From: Diacronema lutheri
Lineage: Eukaryota > Haptophyta > Pavlovophyceae > Pavlovales > Pavlovaceae
NCBI GenBank assembly: GCA_019448385.1
Contig: JAGTXO010000012.1
Location: 942,422-1,006,421, forward strand
DNA: 64,000 nucleotides
Reading direction: 5' to 3'
Shown: in pieces, positions 1-27,649 of the stretch
Layout: each line of letters starts with the position of its first letter
How positions within the stretch are numbered: the first letter of the stretch is position 1
Notes under the pieces: model-generated
What the model saw: the letters and a program-made list of their open reading frames with translations, nothing else
What the model was told of the DNA's origin: nothing
Databases searched by the model: none
Position numbers and translations under genes: made by a program

Positions 1-276
1 TGGCAGCAGGCGGCGCTGCACGCCAGCCAGCAGCAGCACGCCGTGGCGGCCGCGGCCGCCGGCGGGCAGCCGTTCGCCTGGGCGCCGCCGCACGAGGCGC
101 GGCACGCCTTCGATTTTGAGACGCGCGGCCGGCCCGCGGGCGCGGCGCCCGGCGCGAGCCCCGGCGCCGGCGCGGCGGAGCATGGCGCGCGTTCGCCGCT
201 CGGCTGCGGGTCGGGCGCGGCTGCGTCCGGCGCGGCGGCGTCGCCCGCGGCGCAGCAGCACTTGCACGTCGAGTAA
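1..276 (+). CDS. 3' end of an unidentified protein (partial)
   Basis: The reading frame is open from the first base of the window and ends at TAA 274-276, so only the last 91 codons are visible. The peptide is rich in Ala, Gln and Gly, with a Gln/His stretch at the start and Ala/Gly runs at the end. No domain is recognisable; the composition is like the disordered tails of regulatory proteins, such as the HSF-family gene at 19636-24822, but this is only a resemblance. An alternative is that GT at 273 opens a 41-nt AT-rich intron (273-313), which would change the C-terminus. Confidence 0.45.
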   Translation, partial: WQQAALHASQQQHAVAAAAAGGQPFAWAPPHEARHAFDFETRGRPAGAAPGASPGAGAAEHGARSPLGCGSGAAASGAAASPAAQQHLHVE

Positions 277-18623: not shown

Positions 18624-18665
18624 GGAAAGCCGATATACTAACGACGCTTTCCGACGGGTCAACAG
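18624..18665 (+). repeat. Dispersed TACTAAC repeat, copy B (short)
   Basis: GGAAAGCCGATATACTAACG followed by ACGCTTTCC and a GGGTCAACAG tail. It shares the head of copies A, C and D but lacks their downstream 90 bp. The GGAAAGCCGATATAC part recurs at about 18961, upstream of copy D. Confidence 0.6.
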
Positions 18666-18811
18666 ATGGGGTCAGGAAGTGCGCAGCGAGGCGCCAGGCG
18701 GAGCAGGCCCAAAGGCCCACTCGCGCCTAGCCACCGCGCGCCGCCGCCCGCGCGCCGCCGCACCGGTGGCCGCCGTCAATCACACCACCGGCCGACGCGC
18801 ACGCGCACGCA

Positions 18812-18946
18812 TATACTAACGACGCTTACGGCTTACAGCGGGTCAGCAGGAGGGGCGCGCACGGGGCCGAGGCGTGACGGAGGGAGCGAGCGAAAGGGCG
18901 CACGCAACATCAGGCCGAAATCAGGGCGTCGACCCTGTGCACGCCG
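18812..18946 (+). repeat. Dispersed TACTAAC repeat, copy C
   Basis: Full-length copy from ATATACTAACGACGCTTACG to GACCCTGTGCACGCCG. It differs from copy D by a small insertion after the head and a few changes near GGCCGAGG. Confidence 0.75.
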
Positions 18947-19001
18947 GCAGCGGGAACGGTCGGAAAGCCGATATACCACTTGAAGGACAGAGCCTCGGGT
19001 A

Positions 19002-19130
19002 CATACTAACGACGCTTACAGGCGGGTCAGCAGGAGGGGCGCGCACGGGGCCGAGGCTGGACAAACGGAGCGAGCGAAAGGGCGCACGCAACATCAGGCC
19101 GAAATCAGGGCGTCGACCCTGTGCACGCCG
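19002..19130 (+). repeat. Dispersed TACTAAC repeat, copy D
   Basis: Full-length copy, nearly identical to copy C at a start-to-start distance of 190 bp and to copy A for its first 100 bp. It ends at GTGCACGCCG. Confidence 0.75.
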
Positions 19131-19635: not shown

Positions 19636-22600
19636 TCATGGCGCGGGCGGCGGTGCGGCATGGACGAGCGGCTCGACGTCAAGCTGCGCGCCCGCAGACT
19701 GCTCGACGCCTTCCACCGCCGCCTCGACCGCCGCGTCGACGATCGCGCCGTCGATGCAGCTAGACGCCGTGTCGAGGTTGGACTGCTTGGACGGCTTCGA
19801 GCCGCCCGCGCGCGCAGTGGACGACGACGACTCCGAGCCCGGCGGCGAGGAGACACGCTGCGTGCCGCCGAGGGCGAGCCCCTTGTGCGTGGTGCCCACG
19901 CAGAGTGGCAGAGACGACGCGCGCTCACACGCGCCGAGCAGCGCGCCGAGCGGGCCGAGCGCCTCGATGCCCCGCTTCGCGCGCTTGCGGCCGCCGTCCG
20001 CGCCGCTGCCGTCGGCGTGGCAGCAGTGCAACGCGTGCGCGCCGCCCGCGCCAACGAGGCCAGGCGCGCCCGCGGTGAAGCTGCTCGCCACGTACTCAGC
20101 GCACGAGCTGCACTGCGCGGGCCCGCCGTGCGGGTAAAGCGCGCCGCCGCTGTCGCCGCCGTCGCCGCCGTGACCGCCGCTGCCGCCATGCTGCGCGCAC
20201 GCAGCGCCCGAGGCGCCGTGTGGGACGGGCAGCGGGCGTGCGCGCGAGTTGTAACGGCCAGCGAGAATGCCGAGCTGCGGCAGCGGCAGCTGCGAGAGCG
20301 GCGCGCCCGCGCCCGCGCTCTGCGCGCACGATGCGTGTGCGAACGCCGCGCCGCGCCCGCCGCCGGCGCGCAGCCCGTCCGATGCGGCGAGCGCAAGGCG
20401 GCGCGCGTCGGTGTGCGGCAGCGCCGCGGCGGCGGCGGCGGCGGCGGCGGCGCAGAGGAGGGGCGGCGGCGCAGGCATTGACAGCTCGGCGAACGGCAGG
20501 GAGGAGAGGGCTGCGGGCGGAGGCGGAGGCGGCATTGCCATGGCGGGCGGCGGCGGAGGCGCGGGCGGGTGCGGCCAGCCGCTCGCGCCACCAGCGCCGG
20601 CCGCGCCGGCCGCGTCGGCCGCGTGCGCAGCGGGCAGCGCGGCAGGCGCGTGCGCGGCGGGCGCTTCGCCGCCCGTTGCGCCAAAGGGTGACTGCTGTGC
20701 GCCACCTTCGCCCAACGGTGGTGCCGCCGCTGCGCTGCCCGCTGCGGCGCGCAGCGGCGGCGGCGGCGGTGACGACGACCAGCCGGCGCAGCGGTCGGCA
20801 TGGCGGCTGGGGTCAGCATGGCGGCTGGGGTCAGCATGGCGGCTGGGGTCAGCATGGCGGCTGGTGGGGTGGAGCGGCGCGGACGGTGCGCGGTGCGAGG
20901 CGGACGTCGCCGTCTGCGCGCTCAGCCCGCACGCGCAGCCGGCCGCGGGCGCGCCGCCGCCGCCGGCCGCGGCCGCATCGCCGTCGGCGTCCGCGCCCGG
21001 CCGGTCGGCCGTGCACCGACCGCCGTTGCCGCCGCCGCTGCCGCCGCCGCCGCCATCGTGCGGGCCCGAGCCGTGCGTCGAGCCGCGCCCACCGCTGCCG
21101 CTCCCGCCGCCATCGTGCGCCGTGCGCTGAGCCGGGTCGACTGTGTCGCCTCCGCTGCCGGCTGCGGCCGCGCACCCGCCGCTGCCGCCGCTGCCGCCGC
21201 AAGCGCCGCCGGCGCCGGAGCCGCCGCCGCTTCCGCCGCCGCTGCCGTCACAGCCGCCGCTGCCGCCCGCCGCGCCGGCGGCGCTCGCGTCCGCCGCGGC
21301 CGAGTCCGGCGTCGCCGAGTCGGCCGGGCGCGACGCGCCGTCGAGCGCCGTAGGCGGCAGCGCGTGCGTTGGAGGCGACGCTGCGCCGTCGCGCGCGGCG
21401 CGGTGCGACGAACGGTGCTGCGGCCGGCCGAGCCGCTCGCGGGCGGCGTGGCGCTGCTTGAGCTCGCGCTCTTGCGCGCGCTGCTTGTCGTGTGCGCCGG
21501 ATGAGGGCTTGGGCGCAGAGCGCGCGCCGCGCTCCGCCGCTTCTGCGGGCGCTGAGCCGCCCGAGTTGCCCGAGCCGCCCGAGTTGGATGGGTCCGATGG
21601 GTCCGACGGGTCCGACGCGCACGGGCCGGACGCGGGCTCAGCCGAGTCCGGGGAGGCGGAGGGCGGCGGCTCGTTGGAGCCGTCAAGCGAGCCCGAACCG
21701 CCACCCGACGGCGCGGTGCCGGTCGCCGTGTTGCCCGAGCCCGAGCCGTCGCGCTGCTCACACGCCTCCGCATCGACGCGGCTGCCGCTGACGCCGACGT
21801 CGCGGCTCGTGCGCTGCTGGCGAGTGCACGCGCGCGACTCGCCGCCCGATCCGCCCTGCGCGCGCGCCTCGCCGCCCCCTGCCGCACCCGCACCCGCGAG
21901 AACCGCCGCGTCGCCATCGTGTTGCCGGTTCGTCGGTTCGCTCACCTCGTCACCGGCGGAGCCTGCGACGCGCGCGGCGGCGGGTGGCGGCGCGTCGGAT
22001 GCGCGCGCGTCAGCGGCTGCGCGCGCGGCGCGCAGCGCGCGGCGCGCAGCCGCTGACGCGCTGCCCTCCGCGCGGTGCGTGCGCGCGCACTCGGCCGCTG
22101 GTCGGGGTGAAGCGGGATGGCGGGCGCGAGCGTGCCGTCGGCGAGGAGCAGCCCGCCATGCTGCGCGATCGCGTTGTGTGGCATGTGCTCGCATCCGATG
22201 CCATCAATGGCCATCTGCTGGCTCTCGAGGGTACGCAACAGCGTGTCGAGCTGAATATGGTGCACGGTGGTCATGCGACGAATCTCCGCTTGCAGCCCCT
22301 TGCAGATCTTCTTGAGCGCCGACAGGTCGCCCATCAGCGCAACCTCCGACGTCGTCGAGTTGGAGCCACCGCTCGCCGCGCGCGTCGCGTGCGTCGCCGT
22401 CGCCGCCGCCGCGTGCGCCGCCGCATAGCCAGCGGCGCCGCCCGGCGCGCAATCCACGCCGTGCGCAGCTGCGTGCGTGTATGCGCAGCCGGACGCGAGG
22501 CCCGGACCATCGTCGGCTGACGCGGCGGGCTGCCCCGAGGCCGTCGCGCCGCCGCTGCCCTGCCCGCCCGAGCCAGCGCCGCCGTGTGCTGTCGCCTCGT

Positions 22601-24822
22601 CACCGCTGCCCGCGCCGCGGCGCGCGTCCGCCGCCGCGCCGGCGCCCACCGCGCCCGCGCCCGCGCCCGCGCGCGCGCACGCGCCTGCGGGCGGCGAGAA
22701 GAGCTGGCAGTGCGGAGGCAGCGGCGAGTGCTGCCCCTGCTGCCCGTGCACGAGCAGCGGCTGCAGCGCTGCGCCGCCGCCATGCTGCGAGTGCAGCTCC
22801 CACTCAGACGGCGGCGCAGCGAAACGGCCGACCGAGTCCGTTACGCCCGCCGTGACGCCCGCCGCTGCGCCCGCCGCTGCGCCCGCCGCTCCGACAGGCG
22901 TGTGCGCGCCGCTGCCGCCGCTGCCGCCGCCGCTGCCGCCCGCGGTCGCGATCGCGGGCGCCGTCATCTCCGTCGGCACGCCGTGCAGCTGCGCGGCGTG
23001 GTGGTGGTGACGGTGGTGGTGGTGGTAGTGGTGGTGGTGGCGGTGGCGGTGGTGGCGCGCGGCGCCGTCCGGCAGCGCCGATCCGGTGTCGCGCTCCGCC
23101 TCGTCGCGCTCCCTGCCGAGCGCGGATGCGCCGTGCACGCCCCCGTGCGCGTGCGGCGCAAAGGGCATCGAGCCATCCGAGTGCGCCTCGCCCGCGCACG
23201 AGCCGAAGGGCGCAGCGCAGCCGCCGAAGCAGCGACGGCGCTGCGCCTCCACCTCGGCGACGGCGAGGGCGTCCGCGTGCGCGTGCGCCGTCTGCAGCGC
23301 GTGGTGCGCGTGCTGCGCCGCCGCGAGGCGCTCGTGCTCGGCGGACGGCGGGGCGGAGGCGGAGTGGGCGAGCTTGTGCACGGGCAGCGGCAGCCTCTCC
23401 TTGTCTGCACGGACAGAGCGGCGCAACCGGCGCAACCGGCGGGCGGGCGGGCGGGCGGGCGGGCAGCGCGCGCGGGAGGGCGCGAGGGCGATCAGCGAGG
23501 GCGGCACAGGGCGGCGCGCGAGGCGCGGCGCGGGCGCGGCGTCGCGCACGCCGAGCGCGACGGGCGATAGGCGGCGTGCGCGCCTCACCGCGCGCGCATC
23601 GGACGAGCTCGTGGAGCAGGTCCTGCCTGCCGCGCACAAAGTGCCTGTGGAAGAAGCTGAGCGAGCGGTCGAGGTAGGACGAGTGCATGCGTCGGTGGAA
23701 GCCGTACGTGCGCATCTGTTGGAAGAAGGAGCCCAGCCTGTTGTGCTTGAAGTAGGTGGGCAGCACCTCCGACTGGAAGGTCTGCGGCTCGCGGATCACG
23801 ATCGACAGCCCGTCGTCCGACCAGCCGACGCAGTGCTCCGTCTCGGGCCGGTCGACGATCTGGTAGAGCTTGAGCACGAAGGGCAGCACCTTGCCCGGCG
23901 CACGGCCCGATGTCTCGGAGCCTGCCGACGGGTGGGGCACATCAGCGCCGCTCGGCCGGTGGCTGCTCCCCGTGAGCGCGAGGAGGCCCTCGGCGGCAAC
24001 GCCCGGGCTCGCCTCGGCCGGCTCGGCAGACCGCGGCCGCTTTGCGCCGAGCCGCGAGGCCGCCGCTGTAGCGGCGACCGCAGCGGCGGCGGCGGCCGCT
24101 GCAGCGGCGGCATCTGCTGCGAAGGGCTGGCCGACGGACGAAGGCATCGGCTCAGCGGCGAGCGGGGATGCCAACAACGCGTGCGCGCCCATTCCAGCGA
24201 AGGCCGCCGCGGCCGCCGCGGGTGCGACGGCGACGGCTGCGGCCGTGGCCAACGCGGCCGGCGCGGCCGGCGAACACGGCTGCGCGCGCAGCTCGGCCGT
24301 GCCGCCGGCGAGCGCGGAGGGCAGGTGCGGCGGCGTCGGGGGCCGGTCGGGCGCATCCGCGCGCGTGTCCATACGCGCCGCATCCTCCTCCTCCGCCCCG
24401 CCCGCGCCGTTGAGGAACTGCGCGCGCATCCAGCCACCGTAAAAGTGCCCATAGCCGCCAGACGCGTCGGCAAGCGGCGCGACGTGGAGCGTGTTGAGGA
24501 AGTGGCGGCCGGTGCGCGTGACGTTGACGATCTGCACGGCGATCGACTGCTTGCGCCGCACCGCGTCCTGCAGCGCGCCCAACGTCGCCTTGCACGTCGC
24601 GTCCGACTGCAAGAAGGCGCAAGAGTGCCCCATGACCTCATGCGGCTGGTAGCCGGTGATCCGGCACCACTCCTCGTTGACGTGGATGATGCGGTAGGGG
24701 GGCTCGCCCTCCGTCACCACGGTCGCATGTGCGCTCGGCATGAGCGCGTGCTCGAGCATGAGCACCGGCAGTGTGCCGCCCGCGGGCGCGGGCGGCGCGG
24801 GCCATTCTAACCCCCCCTCCAT
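19636..24822 (-). CDS. LOV-like PAS domain fused to a heat-shock-factor DNA-binding domain
   Basis: Exons 24822-23589, 23404-22091 and 21962-19636, joined by phase-1 introns, give about 1624 aa. Residues about 35-140 form a PAS/LOV-like domain: NEEWCRITGYQPHEVMG, then HSCAFLQSDAT with Cys68 at the LOV adduct position, and VTRTGRHFLNTLHVAPL. Two LOV Asn positions are kept, but the Arg after Cys is Ala and the terminal Gln of the last strand is Trp. Residues about 313-408 are an HSF winged helix: LPFVLKLYQIV, GWSDDGLSIVI, LPTYFKHNRLGSFFQQMRTYGFHRR. Then comes a long disordered His/Gly/Ser/Ala-rich region with one predicted coiled coil (ALMGDLSALKKICKGLQAEIRR), like the HSF HR-A/B oligomeriser. 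Inferred to be a light- or redox-responsive transcription factor. Exon 3 may hide further introns. Confidence 0.8.
20799..20866 (-). repeat. 18-bp tandem repeat coding SRHADP units
   Basis: Four near-perfect 18-bp copies (plus strand CATGGCGGCTGGGGTCAG) encode SRHADP repeats in the disordered region of the LOV-like/HSF protein. Confidence 0.8.
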
Positions 24823-27076: not shown

Positions 27077-27649
27077 CTAGGCGCGCGAGCGCGCGAGCTG
27101 CTTCGACAGCCATTTCTGGTGGTACTCCTCCGCGCGGAAGAAAGGGGCGGCCGGCAGAATGGCCGTGTGCTTGGAAATCGACGGGCGGATCTCCGCGCGG
27201 AGCCGCTCGGCGACGAGCCGCTGCTCCTCCGTGTGCCAGAAGATGGCGGAGCGGTACTGAGCGCCTGTGAAGGCCATCGGCATCGGCGAGTGCTCGGCGA
27301 AAAAGAAGTCGACCAGCCGCTCAAAGGAGGTGAGCTCGGGGTCAAACGTGACGCGCAACGCCTCCGTATGATCGCCGATTGCGTCGTAAGTCGGCCACTC
27401 GCTCACGCCGCCCGTGTAGCCGACGACCGTGTCGCGCACGCCAGGCAGCGCGTCGTACGCCGCCTGCGGGTGCCAGAATCAGCCGAGCGCCAGCGTCGCG
27501 GTCTGCGACGCGGCCGACTGCTCGGGCGGCGGGAGCCGCGGGCAGACGCCGCCACCCTCGCGCGCGAGCATGGCCACGCTAGCCCGAGGCGCCACGAGGA
27601 GCCTCGGCGAGCGAGCCGAGATGCTCGCGACGATCGCGAGCGCCATCAT
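27077..27649 (-). CDS. MSRA: Selenocysteine-containing peptide methionine sulfoxide reductase A
   Basis: Single exon, 190 aa including Sec. TGA at 27481-27479 lies in frame exactly at the catalytic Cys of the GCFW motif (ALG-U-FWHPQ), and MsrA sequence continues on both sides: LPGVRDTVVGYTGG, TYDAIGDHTEALRV, FFFAEHSP and YRSAIFWHTEEQ. With the SECIS in the 3'UTR this reads as a selenoprotein, Sec57, as known for MsrA of some algae. It reduces Met-S-sulfoxide. The N-terminal 50 residues (MMALAIVASISARSPRLLVA) look like a targeting leader. No resolving Cys is seen near the C-terminus. Naive annotation would start at an internal codon after the UGA and lose the active site. Confidence 0.93.

Follow-up and report, generated by a model that had tools for sequence, protein, structure and literature searches.

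A gene of the haptophyte Diacronema lutheri joining a LOV-like domain to a heat-shock-factor DNA-binding domain, a candidate light-regulated transcription factor

A 64,000-nucleotide stretch of the Diacronema lutheri genome (assembly GCA_019448385.1, contig JAGTXO010000012.1, positions 942,422 to 1,006,421; "the window", in whose coordinates positions without a contig name are given) carries on its reverse strand a gene in which an N-terminal LOV-like domain is joined to a DNA-binding domain of the heat shock factor (HSF) type. The fusion itself is near certain, and chance is excluded because the E values are low and the same fusion occurs in a paralogue on another contig (C4) and in a sequence from a public assembly (P0002). 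The best reading of the gene, to which about an even chance is given, is that it encodes a nuclear, blue-light-regulated transcription factor with a changed DNA target.

Domains of the exon-1 product

The features on which the argument depends are the following.

19636..24822, reverse strand: the gene, as a three-exon model
23589..24822, reverse strand: exon 1, from the start ATG to the donor GTGAGG, encoding the LOV-like domain, an Ala-rich linker and the HSF DNA-binding domain (open frame P0001, third-position GC, donor)
24415..24756, reverse strand: LOV-like PAS domain, residues 23-136 (LOV-family profile, PDB matches, predicted structure)
24619..24621, reverse strand: Cys68 at the flavin-adduct position (GHSCAFLQ), followed by Ala69 instead of Arg (LOV alignments; Cys85 of CagFbFP aligns with residue 68)
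24427..24429, reverse strand: Met132, the most likely place of the signalling Gln, with Val in P0002 and Cys in C4 (alignments, AF2 model, structural alignment)
23599..23880, reverse strand: HSF-type winged-helix DNA-binding domain, residues 315-408 (PF00447, PDB match HSF2)
23698..23730, reverse strand: HSF recognition helix SFFQQMRTYGF, with Gln368 for the guanine-reading Arg and Arg371 for Asn (comparison of 14 HSF places)

Exon 1 is a single open frame of 411 amino acids (P0001) that starts with the ATG at 24822 and ends at a plausible donor (24822-23589, reverse strand); its third-position GC is 0.81-0.95 in 300-base windows starting from 24822 to 23772. In a Pfam scan of its product, PF00447 (HSF_DNA-bind) matches residues 315-408 with an E value of 1.9e-24 (86.5 bits, cut-off 22) and PAS_9 matches residues 43-127 with an E value of 1.8e-12; HSF and PAS are the only domains reported, and the bZIP domain that is a feature of aureochromes was not found. 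The PDB match of the HSF domain is HSF2 (E 3.6e-17). Of the NCBIfam models, YtvA, a family of blue-light photoreceptors, scores best (72.3 bits over residues 23-127, E 4.3e-20), below the curated cut-off of 250, which is a whole-protein value, while the general PAS S-box model scores 28.0 bits. The 60 PDB matches listed, of 128, are by name phototropin, miniSOG, blue-light receptor, histidine kinase and LOV2-fusion chains, and the LOV/PAS fold is also recovered by an AF2 model and by structural alignment. The original prediction, made from the sequence alone, of a LOV-like domain and an HSF DNA-binding domain in one frame is thus borne out by both E values, and the LOV-family profile outscores the general PAS profiles, the opposite of what would have spoken against a LOV assignment.

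The flavin pocket

Both the genome-wide LOV alignment and the structural alignment place Cys68 at the position of the adduct-forming Cys, and the flavin-contacting asparagines are present as Asn100 and Asn110, as had been predicted; the Gln of the FLQ motif (Gln72) is also present. The pocket is changed at Ser67, Ala69 and Gln85 and has no Gln in the last strand, Ala69 standing where the Arg that follows the Cys has been lost, as had likewise been noted. The motif around the Cys is Pro-Cys-Asp in P0002 and Thr-Cys-Arg in the second LOV domain of C4. These residues were compared in a survey that aligned 33 LOV-like domains of the D. lutheri genome with P0002 and with a bacterial LOV kinase (P0003), leaving aside one truncated row and the weaker PAS places on C11, C69, C74, C89 and C99. 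Among the 24 surveyed domains that have the adduct Cys, Arg comes next in 22, the signalling Gln is kept in 15 and Leu stands at its place in six. The loss of the second FMN-phosphate Arg was considered as a sign of decay and rejected, 31 of the 33 surveyed LOV-like domains having no Arg there. A second cysteine nine residues past Cys68 (Cys77, 24594-24592, reverse strand) is common to this gene, P0002 and the second C4 LOV domain.

The place of the signalling glutamine

No Gln is found at Trp131, Met132 or Arg133, so that the predicted loss of the signalling Gln stands in any register; the Trp that had been named as its replacement is probably off by one. The gapless PDB alignment, when read onward from printed alignments that stop just before the site, puts Trp131 at the Gln place; the genome-wide LOV alignment puts Met132 there and Trp131 before it; and alignment A4, which used 56 of the best 80 tblastn relatives, puts the Gln column at Arg133. 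Met132 is the most likely replacement, because three considerations favour it. Firstly, the family motif reads Y-G-G-W-M in this gene, Y-V-G-W-V in P0002 and Y-V-G-V-C in C4, and the Met132 register alone keeps a Gly two places ahead of the site in all three. Secondly, the AF2 model of the LOV domain (mean pLDDT 82.9, with every ten-residue block between 31 and 120 reaching at least 90) has strands at 107-118 and 124-136, limits from which Asn110 would pair with residue 132. Thirdly, structural alignment superimposes residues 31..136 on 48..152 of CagFbFP, so that Cys85 meets residue 68, and Gln148 meets residue 132 if the single additional residue is placed in the hairpin loop. The input of the model was A4, which favours Arg133, and the structural match still gave Met132. 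Trp131 was accordingly set aside as the less likely register.

The recognition helix and its DNA target

In HSF2 and HSF1, Arg63 and Arg71 are termed invariant and confer most of the specificity by way of the GAA guanine, with Asn66 and Asn74 as auxiliary residues (PMC8379338). The guanine-reading Arg is replaced by Gln368 in this gene. The recognition helix is SFFQQMRTYGF both here and in P0004, the second half of an orthologue, and SFTQQLHTYHF in C4, so that Arg has become Gln in all three; it is kept in all 12 HSF places of the genome that have no PAS domain, three of which are partial matches covering the helix. Three residues further along, the fusions carry Arg or His in place of the Asn. 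A stretch of 19 residues around the helix is identical in this gene and P0004, and a later stretch shares 17 of 25 residues. The Arg replacement together with the conservation of the helix points to a changed target and not to decay, and a DNA target other than the heat-shock element is likely. No publication dealing with the recognition helix in HSFs that have a LOV or PAS domain was found, in searches none of which aimed at exactly that pair and whose coverage did not extend to closed journals.

Relatives and origin

The genome searched comprises 43,492,796 bases on 103 contigs and yielded 14 HSF places, only two of which have PAS in frame: the window gene and C4:545722-547470. The same HSF search gave no match in 14 control genomes, which are presumably prokaryotic and so a weak control. 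The paralogue (C4:545722-547881) has the order PAS-LOV-HSF-helix in one frame; its first PAS has neither the Cys nor the Asn, and its second retains the Cys and the Arg, with Cys standing in for the Gln. In P0002 a LOV domain 67% identical to that of the window gene and the start of an HSF domain share one frame of 296 residues, and P0004 starts inside the HSF domain and continues to the conserved segment of exon 2. In an HSF tree of 15 rows, the window gene, C4 and P0004 group at 95/93 and the window gene and P0004 at 97/94, which supports one origin for the three HSF domains. A LOV tree of 27 rows, from which eight of the 12 LOV repeats of a giant frame on C82 and one truncated row were left out, grouped the window gene, P0002 and C4 in 44% of 200 bootstrap trees, with the first PAS of C4 and a PAS of C5 falling among the three fusion rows as long branches; it is too weak to indicate whether the LOV domains of the two genes have one origin. 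Given the fusion in P0002 and the HSF clade, the arrangement is older than the divergence from the source of P0002, and it looks to have been maintained.

The relatives covered are those of the D. lutheri genome, P0002-P0004 and the contig matches, the Emiliania and Tisochrysis proteins standing outside the sequence comparison. Protein searches, which scored only word-sharing candidates (7995, 10 and 126 scored at E 1e-5, 1e-3 and 1e-6), yielded P0002, P0003 and P0004. By tblastn, genome contigs gave at least 351 relatives, of which the best 80 all have bacterial or archaeal record titles. Viral contigs gave four pattern matches, none of them a relative.

Proposed mechanism and alternatives

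The protein may be a nuclear transcription factor in which the N-terminal LOV domain controls the HSF-type DNA-binding domain of the same chain. As judged from its fold and residues, the LOV pocket would bind flavin, and blue light would form an adduct between the flavin and Cys68. The signal would leave through the last strand, where Met132 stands for Gln, relayed by water as has been proposed for Gln-less LOV receptors, and would pass through the linker to the HSF domain, perhaps by way of the exon-2 helix, altering its oligomeric state or DNA affinity. With no guanine-reading Arg in the recognition helix, the target would probably not be the classical nGAAn heat-shock element.

Published work on other LOV proteins bears on the first of these steps. 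YtvA has comparable affinities for riboflavin, FMN and FAD (PMC3836802); therefore, lost phosphate contacts need not end flavin binding. In YF1 most residues can stand in for the signalling Gln, with Pro, His, Trp and Tyr abolishing the response and Arg locking it in a light-independent state; among some 350 natural Gln-less LOV proteins, large aromatic residues are largely absent, and one with Met, taken as the test case, was shown to be a blue-light receptor (PMC9098866). The AsLOV2 mutant Q513M still forms the adduct, with an attenuated circular dichroism (CD) response and slower dark recovery (PMC11151830). Light sensing is accordingly the better bet with Met132 than with Trp. A low-sensitivity light receptor is possible: the original suggestion of weak light sensing stands on a different ground, namely that Met too lowers the light sensitivity of AsLOV2. 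Overall, a light-regulated transcription factor has roughly even prospects.

Several points weigh against light-regulated transcription from a new target. The Arg after the Cys, which contacts the FMN phosphate, is kept in the second LOV domain of C4 and is Ala69 in the window gene and Asp in P0002, where the Asp sits near the place that the phosphate would occupy; the residue before the Cys, normally Asn, is Ser67 and Pro, respectively; and the pocket is unusual, only two of the 24 Cys-bearing domains of the survey being without the Arg. The Gln site lies in a less sure part of the AF2 model (pLDDT 82 and 85 for blocks 121-130 and 131-140), and the Gln column is ambiguous by sequence alone, falling on Trp131 or Arg133 in other alignments, registers that would match the loss of response or the light-independence of YF1. 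A second AF2 model, built from the window gene and P0002 alone, has similar hairpin limits (strands 107-118 and 124-134), but its pLDDT of 52.7 is too weak to count and gives no confirmation of Met132. Photoactivation of AsLOV2 Q513M is almost tenfold slower (PMC11151830). About 178 low-complexity residues separate the LOV and HSF domains. Lastly, the Asn of the recognition helix is likewise replaced in three of the 12 other HSF places (by Leu at C71 and at C37, and by Tyr at C100); its change is therefore not distinctive.

One alternative, considered unlikely, is a flavin-dependent redox or metabolic sensor, in which the pocket would bind riboflavin, FMN or FAD, and the HSF domain would be set by how oxidised the flavin, or Cys68 and Cys77, happen to be. 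Both FMN-phosphate Arg sites are changed (Ala69, Gln85), the three LOV domains have Cys77 in common, and Met in AsLOV2 Q513M shifts the flavin potential from -278 to -252 mV while dimming photoactivation (PMC11151830), but all three family members keep the adduct Cys, and the second Arg is so commonly absent in the survey that its loss says little. It is also rather improbable that the PAS part is a protein-protein or dimerisation module without a cofactor. That the pocket can be lost in this family is evident from the first PAS of C4, and stabilisation of the HSF trimer by PAS was suggested in 2016 (PMC4827209), but a pure scaffold would not need the pocket Cys and Asn that are retained across species. 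Much harder to sustain is a canonical HSF acting on heat-shock elements with LOV tuning the stress response by light: the HSF fold is intact by profile, yet Gln stands where HSF1 and HSF2 have their invariant Arg, and Arg or His takes the place of the auxiliary Asn. A division into two genes, or a chance frame of the kind that is common at such length in this GC-rich DNA, can be dismissed, the same fusion and order recurring in C4 and P0002 and codon periodicity spanning both domains.

For the preferred light-regulated factor, a history may be tentatively suggested, though we would sooner doubt it than rely on it. The LOV-HSF clade would have left the heat-shock element in an ancestor of the two genes that already had neither the LOV Gln (now Met, Val or Cys) nor the guanine-reading Arg (now Gln), giving direct blue-light control of a new DNA element through a Gln-free relay. 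Because C4 keeps the Arg after the Cys, its loss is placed later, in the line of the window gene. If the light-regulated reading is true, one protein ties blue light to haptophyte transcription with neither a kinase nor a second messenger in between. The recognition helix, as changed, sharply predicts a target other than the heat-shock element, and the family, with Met, Val or Cys where the Gln would be, offers a natural test of how LOV signals without Gln in a eukaryotic transcription factor.

Downstream exons

The remainder of the gene is modelled as follows.

23405..23588, reverse strand: intron 1 (GTGAGG...GTGCAG), from the open GT-AG model; the P0004 orthologue suggests an equal position
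22091..23404, reverse strand: exon 2, linker and conserved helical segment (codon periodicity, P0004 homology)
22218..22340, reverse strand: conserved segment, possible oligomerisation helix (P0004 homology)
21963..22090, reverse strand: intron 2, best guess among three GT-AG choices that leave no stop in the frame
19636..21962, reverse strand: exon 3, a C-terminal region of low complexity, rich in Gly, Ser, Pro and Ala, that runs as far as the stop (codon-position GC, open model)

The full open GT-AG model gives a protein of about 1624 amino acids. Codon-position GC follows the exon-1 frame to about 23600, then a shifted one as far as about 22150, and from there the first frame again to 19636, and the three-exon span that had been proposed is consistent with it and with the open GT-AG model. 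The predicted exon 2 is confirmed by its homology to P0004 (62% identity over 47 amino acids, E 5.8e-17 with three sequences searched). Exon 3 is predicted from codon periodicity as its sole support, with a contrast that is clear at both ends and weak or absent from about 21400 to 20600; no homologue of it was found, the protein searches not having taken exon 3 as a query. The coiled coil that had been predicted along with the HSF domain corresponds to the conserved segment of exon 2. This begins about 355 codons past the exon-2 start, far downstream of the position of the HR-A/B trimerisation coiled coil just after the HSF DNA-binding domain, and its heptad pattern does not stand out from chance, being matched by 1173 of 5000 shuffles in a simple test.

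Other features of the window and genome

A dispersed repeat of about 128 bases containing TACTAACGACGCTTACAG, which may be read as a branch-point-plus-acceptor-like string, is present as two copies and a fragment at 18635-19130 of the window and again at C4:544986-545113, upstream of the paralogue. Scoring of 40 of 511 candidates gave 49 listed matches, 46 at 100% identity and some partial; the repeat may represent a mobile or introner-like element of recent date. The frame at 27077-27478 (reverse strand) resembles methionine sulfoxide reductase A by its motif. An Rfam scan of the 64-kb window gave no match at gathering thresholds.

Elsewhere in the genome, two giant frames of 4073 and 4296 amino acids (C82:1103985-1113656 and C6:366506-377065, both reverse strand) contain 12 LOV domains and nine plus a truncated one, respectively, several with Leu for Gln and the Cys kept; RGS matches occur in three of four scanned pieces, and both are helmchrome-like candidates. 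A 488-amino-acid frame at C5:890138-890956 (reverse strand) has two LOV-like domains with Leu for Cys, for which Pfam names PAS alone.

Comparison with known systems

The LOV-HSF combination had originally been put forward as a solution different from that of the aureochromes; as an architecture it is not new: HSF+PAS factors of haptophytes were described in 2016 with a sensing hypothesis, two in Emiliania huxleyi and four in Tisochrysis lutea, with two more in T. lutea that have two PAS domains (PMC4827209), and Coesel 2021 is credited with LOV joined to homeobox or HSF domains (PMC8591175). The E. huxleyi and T. lutea proteins resemble the window gene and C4 in having an HSF DNA-binding domain with one or two PAS domains. 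As far as its partial text goes, that account differs in that PAS is not called LOV, no residues are given and none is named for Pavlova sp. (PMC4827209). The open-ocean plankton proteins are described as having LOV and HSF in one protein, as here (PMC8591175).

Aureochromes likewise couple LOV directly to a DNA-binding domain. EL222 is a LOV-HTH protein whose output is a bacterial LuxR-type HTH. The aureochrome output is bZIP instead of HSF, with LOV C-terminal where that of the window gene is N-terminal (PMC12558739). Aureochromes are described as restricted to photosynthetic stramenopiles (PMC4827209, PMC12558739) and are not known to be reported from haptophytes; the terms HSF and heat shock are absent from PMC12558739. 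In the natural Gln-less LOV receptors the Gln is replaced, with Met in the tested example as proposed for the window gene, but the output of that receptor is a bacterial GGDEF-EAL (PMC9098866). As far as the literature searches show, what the present genes add to these systems is two pavlovophyte members, the residue-level state of their LOV domains and, in the fusion clade, an HSF helix that no longer has its guanine reader.

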